Virus record (IMG/VR): IMGVR_UViG_3300020140_000005
Coordinates: 1 to 30,583 of that record
Source of the DNA: a virus
Reading direction: 5' to 3' (one strand)
Length of the DNA stretch: 30,583 nt
Below the pieces are notes generated by a model, which was not told where the DNA came from, did no database searches, and was given only the letters and a program-made list of their open reading frames with translations. The position numbers and the translations under genes are program-made. Shown here piece by piece: positions 2,581 to 21,738 of the stretch; the first letter of the stretch is position 1; every line of letters starts with the position of its first letter.

Positions 2581-5500
2581 TCAACTATCCTTTTGTCTAT
2601 GCGCAATTGAGCGCGTCTTAGGTAATCCAAAATTCTCTATAATTTGTTTACTCATCCAATATGTCCATGGTGCATTCGCAAATGGAACCATACGAGCCAT
2701 TTTTAAAGCATCTACTTCATTCATTTCATTACTTGCTAAGGCAGTAAAAAAATCTGCCATGCTATTCGCGTCACCAATAGCAGGGCCTAATAAACCGGCT
2801 CGTGATCTATTTCTATATTTATCATTCTTTAGATCACCTAATAATCCATCTTTTGTTAGTACATTAGCATCATTCAATATTGTCATAAAGTAACTAAAGA
2901 AACCGGAATCAGAAATAACTTCGTAAGCCCATTGTTCATCAGTTTGATCAGGCGGATAAGCCTCTTCTCCACGTGCAATTCGTCGCATAGGACTAACTAA
3001 AGCGCCGGTCGCTAAAAGACTCAATACACCCATAAATTGAAGTGCATCAGGTTTTTGCATAAAAGGAATAACATAACGATTTAAAGAACCAAAAGCCCAT
3101 CCATTAAATCCTTTGAATATCGGGCCCATAATTCCCATCGGGCCGTTAGAATCCATCCAAAAAGGCGTATCCAATGTATTAGCGCTAATCACCGTATCAT
3201 GCGTTGCTCGAAATACAGCATCACTGAAAGTATTAGAAGTTTCCCAATCTAGCCATTGCCAATAATTACTTTGATAACCTCCCAGAGAAGTTTTTCCACC
3301 TCCATGAGACTTGAATTGAGAAATCATTTTTTCTGACCATTCTTTTGGATCTAGGCCATATCGTAATAACCAACGTTTATCTCTAACTGATAAAGTTCCT
3401 TTTTGATGAGCTACCATCATTCTCATGATTTCAGATTGAGCAACAGCCGACGTAATACGTTGTAATGTATTATCAAAAAAATTAGTCAAATTAAAATTAG
3501 CGGATAGATGAGCAGTTTTGTCTAAAGCTGATGGAATCTTACCCATATTTAGATAGGGATTAGTTTGTAGCCCAATGTTCTTTTCTGATGTTGCACCGCC
3601 GATATGTTGTAAAGCTAAATTAGCTGCTGCTGCCGCATTTCTTAATGCTTCGCTGTCTTTTGTTTTTAACATACCACCCAAGCTTTGCACCATTGGATAA
3701 ATACCATCTCTTAAGAAAGGCAATACACCATGTTTTAATCCATTTGCGGATAAGTCAGTTATCATTGTTAAAGGTAAAAAGCCTAAATTAGCTAATACAG
3801 TAAAAGAGCGCACACTTGATTGAAAAGCTTTTTGATTTTTACTTAATTTAGATATGCCAGCCATTTTTTCATAAGTGAAGTTCAATGCTGTTTTTGCTTT
3901 TTCAAAACGTTTTTTTTCTTTATTCAATTCAATATCTGATTTGGTTAATTTCTTATTTAATTCTTTTTTAGTTTTAACTGATAGATTTTCAGTTAATAAT
4001 TGATTTTCTATTTTTTCTTTAGCACCATTCAATAATGCACGATTAAAATCATATTCTTCTTTGAGTCCAGCAATAATAGGTTCAAAGCCACCTTCTAATG
4101 TTAAATTATTATAGACATTTTTAAGATGAGTTCTGCGCGCTAACCAAGACTGATAATTAGCTGTTTTAGCCAATAAATCTTTTGTCATGAATTTATGTTT
4201 ATAAAGGACTTCATCCGGAATCATTAAAGTCCTTGACATCAAATGATTCTCTGCGCCATTACCAGTAAATTTACCCATGACTTGATTAATCGTATCTTCA
4301 GCGGTTTGATTCATGATGGTATCGTAATAGGCTTTAGCATGTTGCTCTCTAAATAGATGAGCATCTTCCTCACTGGCTAAATATCCTTTTTGTTCATGAT
4401 AAGTTTTTCTTAATTTAAGTCTTTGACTAGGATCTTTAAACACATAAGAAAAACTTCCTTGTGGTTTAGAAAAAAATCGGCGATTAATCTGGCCACTTTC
4501 TGCCATTTCTTGGAGACGAATAGTTTCTTCTTTTAAATCTTTCTCTAGTTCGGCTAATTTAATTTCTTCTCGTTCAGCAACTAATTCACCAATTGCTGCT
4601 TTTTGTTTTCCGCTTTTTGCTGTTTTAACTGTTTTAGATTTTTGAGTTGCTTTGTTTCTTTTAGATGCTTCAGTCTTAATATTTCTAATTAATTGTTTTT
4701 GTTCATCTACAAATTTTTGCGCCACATCTCGACGTTTAGTTAATTGAATAAGTTCTTTGGCTTCTTCAGCTGATAAATCATTCCATTCTTCAGCTAAAAG
4801 ATGCAATTCGGGATTTGTTCTAATTGAATTTTGAAGAGTTTCTTCTAAAACTTTTTTCTTGATTTTTAATGTTTGCAGCTTTTCTGCTGAATTTTTTACT
4901 TGATTATCAGTAATATTAGGTCTAGAAATTAACGCATCATGTTCTAGAATATGATTTTCTATCTGACGTGTAATATCATTAATAGGTTTTGTATGTTTAA
5001 TAATTGTTTCATCAGATTGCTTAAGATAATCAGATATAACTTGAACCCATTTCCCTTCGTTATTGTTTAAGAAATTAGTATCATACACTCGCATCAAATA
5101 ACCACGAGCAGTTCTAGGTGGCATCCAATCTTCAGGCAAATTATATGCGGTTCGCCATTGTTTATATGAATCATCCATCACTTCACGAAGTAAAGCGGCG
5201 GCTTCATTCACAGATCCGTGGGGACTTGTTGATTCATTGATTAATACATCTTCAATTTCAGAAAAAAATTCTTCACGATTGACGTAAGGCTTATTTCCTA
5301 GATTTTTACCTAAAAATTCTAATGCTTTTTCTTTTGTATATAGAGCTGCTTTTGTCGCGCCCTGAGCTACGTAATTATCTAGATCAAAGCCATTACGTTC
5401 TAAATGAAGTCCATTAATTTGTGCTTCTTGGGCTCTAATAGATGCATGTGTTTGTTTCATTAACGTAAAGAATTTTTTAGGGCTAGCAATTCCTTTTTCT

Positions 5501-20731: not shown

Positions 20732-20968
20732 ATGAGAACTAGATTATCTTGGGAATGGGAACAGTTAGATCCTAATACGAGAAGAGCGAAAGTATTTGGT
20801 GGATGGATACTTCATGCTTATACATGTGCTCCTAATACTAGTGATTCTAATCGAGTTAAATGCATTAGTGAAACAATGACTTTCGTGCCTGACAACAATC
20901 ATCAATGGCATATTTTACAGCCTTTAAAAGAAGAAGAAAAAAAACCATCGATCGCGCAGGATTTTTGA
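20732..20968 (+). CDS. Small hypothetical protein
   Basis: A 78-residue protein beginning directly after the previous stop, with GAGAGGATGG as ribosome site inside the upstream gene. It is beta-rich and has six Trp or Tyr residues (W-E-W-E-Q-L, F-G-G-W-I-L-H-A-Y) and two Cys. The resemblance is to small phage proteins of unknown function. It is the last protein gene before the structured-RNA locus. Confidence 0.6.
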   Translation: MRTRLSWEWEQLDPNTRRAKVFGGWILHAYTCAPNTSDSNRVKCISETMTFVPDNNHQWHILQPLKEEEKKPSIAQDF

Positions 20969-20996
20969 ATGATAACCGAGTTTATGGCCAACGATA

Positions 20997-21107
20997 TTTG
21001 CATTTCACGAGTGGACAAAGTGTGAGCCAATGGACAAACTAATTCGATTCTACAGTCGATTAGCCATTATAGAGCGAGATATCATAGGTTCGAATCCTAT
21101 ATGCAAA
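20997..21107 (+). ncRNA. Domain A: tRNA-like cloverleaf with canonical T-arm
   Basis: TTTGCAT (20997-21003) pairs with ATGCAAA (21101-21107) as a 7-bp acceptor. A canonical T-arm, ATAGG-TTCGAAT-CCTAT (21084-21100), abuts the 3' acceptor strand exactly as in tRNA. A weak D-like arm CAC/GTG encloses AGTGGACAAA. The middle arm is over-long: AATGG/CCATT, then CTAA/TTAG and TCGA/TCGA, with 5-base and 1-base bulges and an 8-base loop (21048-21055, TTCTACAG). At 111 bases it exceeds any ordinary tRNA, and no CCA is encoded. It is therefore a tRNA mimic, a degenerate tRNA or a domain of a larger RNA. Confidence 0.6.
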
Positions 21108-21128
21108 GAAAATAGGCCGCCAGTTTAT

Positions 21129-21245
21129 GACAGACTCGGCATTGACAGTGAAATGCTGAATTATCTCAAGGTGAATGCGTAGAGCATCCTAGGCTATGGC
21201 TAGTGCGAAAATTTCACCAAACCGGTGCAATTCCGGTAGTCTGTC
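21129..21245 (+). ncRNA. Domain B: second cloverleaf-like fold
   Basis: GACAGACT (21129-21136) pairs with AGTCTGTC (21238-21245), 8 of 8. Next to the 3' strand lies a T-arm-like hairpin ACCGG-TGCAATT-CCGGT (21221-21237) with a 7-base loop. GCATT/AATGC (21139-21156) occupies the D-arm place. GGTGAA/TTCACC (21170-21218) closes a central arm ending in GCA-CTAG/CTAG-TGC with a 7-base loop GCTATGG. The topology repeats that of domain A although the sequences differ. Confidence 0.6.
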
Positions 21246-21253
21246 AAAGTTTA

Positions 21254-21369
21254 TGGCCTATAATATCGACAAATCATTCAGAACTCAGCGGATGAGATGT
21301 AAAGCGGGATGTAGGAAATGCTGAGCTAATGCCTACATGTGGTGAAGAAGTCTAGGATAAAATAGGCCA
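21254..21369 (+). ncRNA. Domain C: closed domain containing an H-type pseudoknot
   Basis: TGGCCTAT (21254-21261) and ATAGGCCA (21362-21369) close the domain with 8 perfect pairs. Inside, CTCAGC (21284-21289) pairs with GCTGAG (21320-21325), and ATGTAGG (21309-21315) pairs with CCTACAT (21332-21338). The strands interleave, giving a classical H-type pseudoknot with connecting loops of 19, 4 and 6 bases, which is sterically feasible. Confidence 0.6.
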
Positions 21370-21378
21370 CCAGTTTAT

Positions 21379-21442
21379 GCGACAGCTTGAAGAAAAGATA
21401 AACTGCGGGAACTTTCTTCGTATAGCTGTCGCTCCATTTTTT
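21379..21442 (+). terminator. Domain D: long hairpin terminator of the plus-strand transcript
   Basis: GCGACAGCT (21379-21387) pairs 9/9 with AGCTGTCGC (21424-21432). An inner stem GAAGAAA/TTTCTTC (21389-21395 with 21413-21419) extends it above a small internal loop. Four bases later comes T6 (21437-21442). This ends the rightward transcript, and the T-run abuts the stop codon of the convergent gene. Confidence 0.7.
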
Positions 21443-21738
21443 CAACGAGAATATGTACCATCAGGATTCGGTGTTCCCATACTCATCGATTTTTTATCCA
21501 TCCGGTTCATTTGCATTTCATTCTCACGGCCATTATTAGCAGGTTGAGAAGAAGTCGCATTATGATTATAACCGGACATATCGTGATTAGTTACAACACG
21601 ATCTATCGCAATTTTAGCATCATATCTGCGTGGATCTTCACCGCCACCTCGACGAATTGAATCAGCTGAGTCATGCATTGTTGAGGTGTCGGAACGTAAT
21701 TCTTTCATGGGACGGTTTTCATTTACTTTGTTATCCAT
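21442..21738 (-). CDS. Hydrophilic hypothetical protein, probably disordered
   Basis: A 98-residue protein dominated by Asp, Arg, Asn, Ser and Met, with an R-R-G-G-G-E-D-P-R-R-Y-D-A-K segment mid-protein and a Met/Gly/Asn tail. No hydrophobic core is evident, so it is probably disordered or a partner-binding protein. It is the last gene of the minus-strand early operon and ends against the plus-strand terminator. Confidence 0.55.
   Translation of the reverse strand: MDNKVNENRPMKELRSDTSTMHDSADSIRRGGGEDPRRYDAKIAIDRVVTNHDMSGYNHNATSSQPANNGRENEMQMNRMDKKSMSMGTPNPDGTYSR

Follow-up and report, generated by a model that had tools for sequence, protein, structure and literature searches.

The oversized tRNA-like cloverleaf at positions 20997-21107 (+) of a podovirus-like phage is the head of a larger RNA unit, the first of four arranged in tandem, and we regard it as virtually certain that this unit is a real structured RNA belonging to a recurrent family. 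The phage, a bacterial virus represented by environmental DNA only, is a 30.6-kb virus record with genes for a T7-type portal, tail and internal virion proteins, RecT, RusA and an O-like protein; the window, as used here, is the whole stretch of 30,583 nucleotides that was analysed. The four units occupy 20986-21436 (+). Units 1 and 3 carry the frame of a stalk family, F1, and unit 2 belongs to a second family, F2. Whatever their function, the covarying F1 and F2 are at least two conserved RNA families newly mapped in environmental phages. An earlier sequence-only reading placed the cloverleaf at exactly these coordinates, which the centroid fold and a Markov-controlled scan bear out, and took it for the whole element; what it saw is only the head, which sits on a stalk ending in CCA, in one of four units. 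Taken as a whole, we lean toward an account in which the cloverleaf is the tRNA-like head of a phage non-coding RNA that would be matured in the manner of a tRNA and would act by mimicry in trans, with decoying as the likeliest use.

The cloverleaf was delineated from the sequence, from a scan for T-arms with acceptors and from pair probabilities. Its 7-bp acceptor pairs TTTGCAT (20997-21003) with ATGCAAA (21101-21107) on the + strand. The canonical T-arm (21084-21100, +) is formed by the 5-bp stem ATAGG (21084-21088)/CCTAT (21096-21100) and the loop TTCGAAT (21089-21095), which has the TTCRANN form, and it abuts the acceptor directly, just as in tRNA and as had been claimed. We scanned both strands for a 5-bp T-stem with a T[TG]C[AG]ANN loop, directly adjoined by an acceptor of 7 bp or more. 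Markov sequence yielded ~3.3 matches per 789 kb, or ~0.13 expected in the window, vs. 2 observed, which are neighbours on one strand. T21004 takes the U8 position, and the D-arm (21005-21025, +), supported by the sequence and by pair probabilities, has a 4-bp stem (TCAC/GTGA) and a loop, GAGTGGACAAAGT, in which A14-, G15-, G18G19-, and A21-type residues are present. With the U8 residue, the D-stem and these D-loop residues, the tRNA elbow of the cloverleaf is complete on paper. The variable region measures 15 nt. Folded within its stalk, the cloverleaf is the centroid structure, with pair probabilities of 0.97 for the acceptor, 0.94 for the middle arm, 0.82 for the T-arm and 0.81 for the D-arm; the single MFE fold differs from it, and the cloverleaf by itself is no more stable than usual (z -0.31).

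Where a tRNA has a 5-bp anticodon stem and a 7-nt loop, folding places a long bulged middle arm (21029-21068, +), namely AATGG-(ACAAA)-CTAAT-(T)-CGA / TCG-ATTAG-CCATT, with ~13 bp and two bulges. The 8-nt loop, TTCTACAG (21048-21055), is present as originally read, although two further pairs are possible that would close it to a CTAC tetraloop. The acceptor of the cloverleaf runs into GAAAATA; the earlier statement that no CCA is encoded is correct for this acceptor and incorrect for the enclosing stalk, which ends in GCCA. Neither ARAGORN nor Rfam (RF00005; Rfam also at E<=5) called a tRNA or tmRNA here. The units could be unusual functional tRNAs, e.g., suppressors or frameshifters that use TTCTACAG as the anticodon CUA or the four-base CUAC, and the canonical elbow, the CCA of the stalk and the true tRNAs in sister arrays would suit such a role. 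However, the anticodon stem of five bp is absent, pairing within the loop may reduce it to a tetraloop, the acceptor is lengthened by an internal loop and the GGCC helix, and unit 2 and most of its relatives have no anticodon-like loop, so that we consider functional tRNAs extremely unlikely. There is good support for the proposal that the element mimics tRNA and does not serve as a functional adaptor, given canonical elbow residues, an abnormal anticodon arm, two programs that made no tRNA call, and an array of covarying tRNA-like families that are elsewhere interspersed with true tRNAs. In its tRNA-like ends, lack of a normal anticodon arm and long insert, the element is also reminiscent of tmRNA, from which the silence of both programs sets it apart.

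Unit 1 as a whole (20986-21122, +) is an F1 RNA carrying the cloverleaf, as indicated by the frame count, covariation of the closing helix, the Markov control and the centroid fold. In its stalk, GGCC-AACGATA (20986-20996) faces GAAAATA-GGCC (21108-21118), and an encoded discriminator plus CCA (GCCA, 21119-21122, +) follows. We defined F1 by a GC-rich 4-bp closing helix, A-U/A.A/U-A in a 7x7 internal loop, and NCC after the helix. The units beginning at 20986 and 21255 of the window are members, and the frame has 37 instances in phage contigs, a count that, like the others given here, includes related sequences and draws on virus-fragment collections in which abundant phages are overrepresented. 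In unit 3 (21255-21372, +; fold z -2.7) the frame reads GGCCTAT-AA-TATC / GATA-AA-ATAGGCC, then ACCA. The window thus holds two copies of the stalk motif, whereas 60 Markov windows yielded none. Its closing helix covaries among GGCC/GGCC, GCCC/GGGC, and GGGC/GCCC, and an inner C-G pair switches in step to U-A. A-U, A.A, and U-A occupy fixed positions of the internal loop in 37/37 units, and three other loop positions become Watson-Crick together in 3 members (two in L008 and unit 3 of the window). The ends are conserved: the base at -1 is T in 34/37 and C in 3/37, +1 is G in 37/37, the discriminator is a purine in 35/37, NCC follows in 36/37 and CCA in 32/37. Between these constant ends lies a variable interior of 20 to >100 nt, which in unit 1 is the cloverleaf and in the F1 unit of L079 is a smaller cloverleaf with the T-loop TGCGAAT. 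No conserved reading frame was apparent by eye in the highly variable inserts. A hammerhead-type ribozyme was considered for the F1 loop (GACGA...GAAA) and rejected, since the core G is not conserved and the third helix is absent.

Among known RNAs, the nearest in layout is YrlA (RF02553), a bacterial Y RNA and natural tRNA mimic (PMC8394870; PMC7790460) that consists of a basal stem plus a tRNA-like domain and measures 90-150 nt in all (PMC8394870). Unit 1 shows the same layout: its two ends form a long basal stem, and D, T, and acceptor arms make up a tRNA-like domain. On this likeness it could be a YrlA relative whose stalk binds a Ro60/Rsr ring and whose head binds PNPase or another effector. 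We find a Y-RNA-like particle improbable, as RF02553 had no match in the window (its weak, sub-threshold matches outside the window were found likewise in 13/14 control genomes) and a TROVE/Ro60 gene was carried by 0/33 array records, all of these being phage records. Moreover, the symmetric 7x7 internal loop of the stalk is unlike vertebrate Ro60 sites, which combine a helix bearing a bulged C with a three-nt bulge (PMC4726728). The stalk motif also differs from that of YrlA and has no Rfam match, and, unlike YrlA, units of the window type are located within tRNA arrays, those with a stalk terminating in CCA.

Unit 2 (21129-21245, +; fold z -3.4), which is separated from unit 1 by the linker GTTTAT (21123-21128, +), is a tRNA-like RNA assigned to F2 by a covariance model and covariation. 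It has an acceptor of 8 bp (GACAGACT/AGTCTGTC), a 5-bp D-hairpin with the loop GACAGTGA, a variable middle, and the T-arm ACCGG TGCAATT CCGGT, with a 5-bp stem. In an alignment of the conserved ends of 24 members, with the middles removed, 99.1% of cells in the helices were paired and 15/18 pairs showed both-sided changes; cells with such changes numbered 40 vs. 7.8 in shuffles, and the signal collapsed when the register was slid. A covariance model built from 12 training members, with the window left out, recovered unit 2 at 63.5 bits (E=1.7e-13), the next match in the window scoring 10.7 bits. Across 46 array loci the model identified 34 members, counting the 12 on which it was trained and which it is bound to find; in 31 control loci, among them one from a jumbo phage with 19 tRNAs, no match rose above noise. 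With 30+ instances, the family contains a conserved subtype, F2b, which occurs in 4 phages with 91% mean column identity and a hairpin stem that changes in step. The covariation evidence covers the F1 stalk and the F2 helices, in both of which compensatory changes are present; the head of unit 1 has no close homologue, the homology search having returned only a match in GC-rich DNA of L086 that we rejected as chance.

These data bear on the notion that the array represents decayed tRNA genes or functionless sequence noise. Although the head lacks a close homologue and has an ordinary folding energy, F1 and F2 covary, unit 2 is detected by a model from which the window had been withheld, and the families recur in dozens of records, which refutes the notion for the array and renders it quite improbable overall. 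A chance origin was ruled out by the Markov controls and covariation, and short matches in the jumbo phages L003 and L004 and in the Salmonella phages 7t3 and SE_PL were set aside as chance. In L070 (4364-4465, -), an F2 member has CACGGTGA and TTCGACT in place of GACAGTGA and TGCAATT, a paired change of D-loop and T-loop hinting that the two may be in tRNA-type contact. In L081, an F2 unit (3056-3249) lies between tRNA-Asn and tRNA-Gln, and its variable middle holds a whole tRNA-like element (RF00005, 36 bits); this cloverleaf within a cloverleaf parallels unit 1 of the window.

The array ends with unit 4 (21379-21436, +), a hairpin (GCGACAGC/GCTGTCGC) that precedes TCCA and a run of T residues and may double as a terminator; a simple terminator scan made no call there. 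The units are linked by GTTTAT(G) or AAAGTTTAT(G), and GTTTAT elsewhere also connects modules to canonical tRNAs. Directly 5′ of the array is a 78-aa gene (20732-20968, +) whose family is found at the same place in related phages, and directly 3′ is a 98-aa convergent gene (21442-21738, -); the array lies past the final + strand gene. In 5 relatives the site between homologues of these two genes is empty of the array that occupies 20969-21441 of the window; the unit-free spacing is a few nt in L071, L029, and L041 and some 45-66 nt in L066 and L027. The adjacency of the flanking genes in relatives indicates that the array was gained or lost at that junction. The four units, located at the 3′ end of the + strand gene row, probably share a transcript. 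An attachment site derived from a tRNA 3′ end was considered and dismissed, as entire units stand in tandem and nothing was recognised as a fragment of a tRNA, and an antisense role on the phage's own genes was rejected since interior complementarity was not above that of shuffled controls.

In other phages, units inside operons are often 2-9 nt past a stop codon and ~20-30 nt ahead of the next start, distances that come from simple gene calling and are rough because spurious frames overlap the arrays. Mitochondrial tRNAs act as processing punctuation in polycistronic transcripts, and the units might similarly be cis-acting cut sites for RNase P and 3′ nucleases in polycistronic mRNA, the released RNA being waste. 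The tight fit of several units between genes and the combination of conserved ends with variable interiors are what such punctuation would predict. On the other hand, four or more consecutive units with no intervening gene would be needless for cutting, head subtypes are conserved and have compensatory stems, and the window array stands past the last + strand gene, facing a convergent one. We therefore regard pure punctuation as unlikely.

Together, F1 and F2 are found in several dozen records of uncultured phages, most of whose portal proteins are unrelated. Among 29 array records, many of which are fragments, 5 have a homologue of the window's portal, two of these only ~27% identical, and the remaining 24/29 have none detectable, which suggests that the RNA families cross phage lineages. 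Loci with modules also contain canonical tRNAs (Gln, Asn, Met, Thr, His, Phe, and Pro). Of the tRNAs, 16 share a locus with a module; all 16 run in the same direction as the nearest module, 8 of them at a distance of 3-11 nt, and tRNAs and modules share the linker RCCA-GTTTATG, e.g., in L072. An encoded CCA is mostly absent from F2 units and also from several of the true tRNAs adjoining them; both would thus require the host's CCA-adding enzyme. No match to F1 or F2 was found in Rfam or in the GenBank phage and plasmid collections searched, and the exact F1 pattern was absent from ~85,000 GTDB bacterial and archaeal species genomes, a search that divergent copies would escape. We found no published description of either family in the open literature. 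When aligned to the ~85,000 species genomes as a search for the host, the portal of the window gave nothing.

How might such units work? In build each resembles a tRNA precursor: its two ends close into a helix, the first base of which is usually a G preceded by U (U-1|G+1), and most stalk units end in purine-CCA. RNase P and 3′ processing would release the units, as for the true tRNAs that adjoin the same families. Reading the -1 and +1 bases and the purine-CC as contacts for RNase P and CCA makes an RNase P contact with the stalk units plausible, and on these sequence features we judge maturation through the tRNA pathway to be probable. EF-Tu and a tRNA-targeting defence enzyme, the other partners named in the earlier reading, would be candidates. 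Once freed, the constant ends and the D-loop/T-loop elbow could be read by tRNA-binding enzymes, while the head would vary by phage. The heads form subtypes that are conserved across phages and whose stems change in step, which points to a product that itself has a function. Conserved head subtypes, such as F2b and F4 (described below), and tandem units would be needless in a pure processing site, and we infer from them, with somewhat less assurance than for maturation, that the units act in trans as tRNA mimics. The product might then tie up or divert an enzyme that acts on tRNA, most likely a defence nuclease that targets tRNA. A decoy against defence is put forward tentatively and by analogy, as phage tRNAs counter tRNA-cutting defences (PMC13096335) and the tRNA-like head of YrlA is a proposed competitive inhibitor of an anticodon nuclease (PMC7790460). 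Our searches identified no defence target in phage or host and no co-conserved protein partner of the arrays; PADLOC returned two marginal matches only, which were disregarded.

Two other phage systems are comparable. Phage tRNA arrays of the T5/T6 type, which supply supplements against tRNA-cutting defences such as Septu, likewise consist of tandem one-strand RNA genes including true tRNAs and share a possible anti-defence role (PMC13096335). In contrast, the present units are not canonical tRNAs and would not be simple substitutes for a cut tRNA. Theta ribozymes of gut phages are also structured RNAs other than tRNAs that lie beside phage tRNAs, in whose maturation they are thought to be involved (PMC10879173). 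Unlike these HDV-like ribozymes, F1 and F2 are units closed by a terminal helix and have no Rfam ribozyme match.

As a main battlefield between phages and bacteria, tRNA is cut by several defences, to which phages reply with spare tRNAs. The presence of the same RNA families in dozens of unrelated phages, often beside tRNA genes, suggests an overlooked phage route to the tRNA machinery. It is conceivable, though we would not press the point, that several unrelated uncultured lineages draw on a modular set of tRNA mimics whose tRNA-like ends are constant and whose heads can be swapped; these would be kept in tRNA arrays, processed by tRNA enzymes of the host and deployed in trans as decoys against tRNA-acting enzymes of defence or host. 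If true, a shared pool of RNAs that keeps the ends and elbow of tRNA and not its decoding part would be a different answer to tRNA-cutting defence. Such RNAs escape both tRNA and Rfam annotation, and the idea of mimicry can be tested directly with the covariance model, the consensus motifs and the exact ends reported here.

Several further modules were observed in other records. The F4 family (~110 nt; L010 7335-7446, L072 12104-12213 (-), and L055 9220-9327) has a core, TGTGCGCGTC...AACGCGCCCAATATGGTAGT...GAGCCAAATAGACYRACAGT, that is conserved in 3 phages and is helix-closed and followed by RCCA, with terminal helices that differ. The F5 family (~88 nt), with GGGGWGAGAAGGG...AAAGTAAGCGTACGATGAAATGC...CTCWTCCC, is unannotated and occurs in two phages, at L002 13819 (reverse-strand position) and L059 3626 (+). 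A recurrent, unannotated module of ~120 nt in L013, L014, and L053 is closed by GGGATG/CATCCC and contains AGGTGC...CACCTACTTGGC. Modules with a hammerhead-like core (CTGATGA ... GAAA ... GTC or TA), with no Rfam call at gathering score, are present in the arrays of L057/L068, L062, and L076. Finally, L008 2822-2903 (reverse-strand position) contains a full tRNA-like cloverleaf in which a long stem with the tetraloop TATA stands in place of the anticodon loop, and which looks incapable of decoding.
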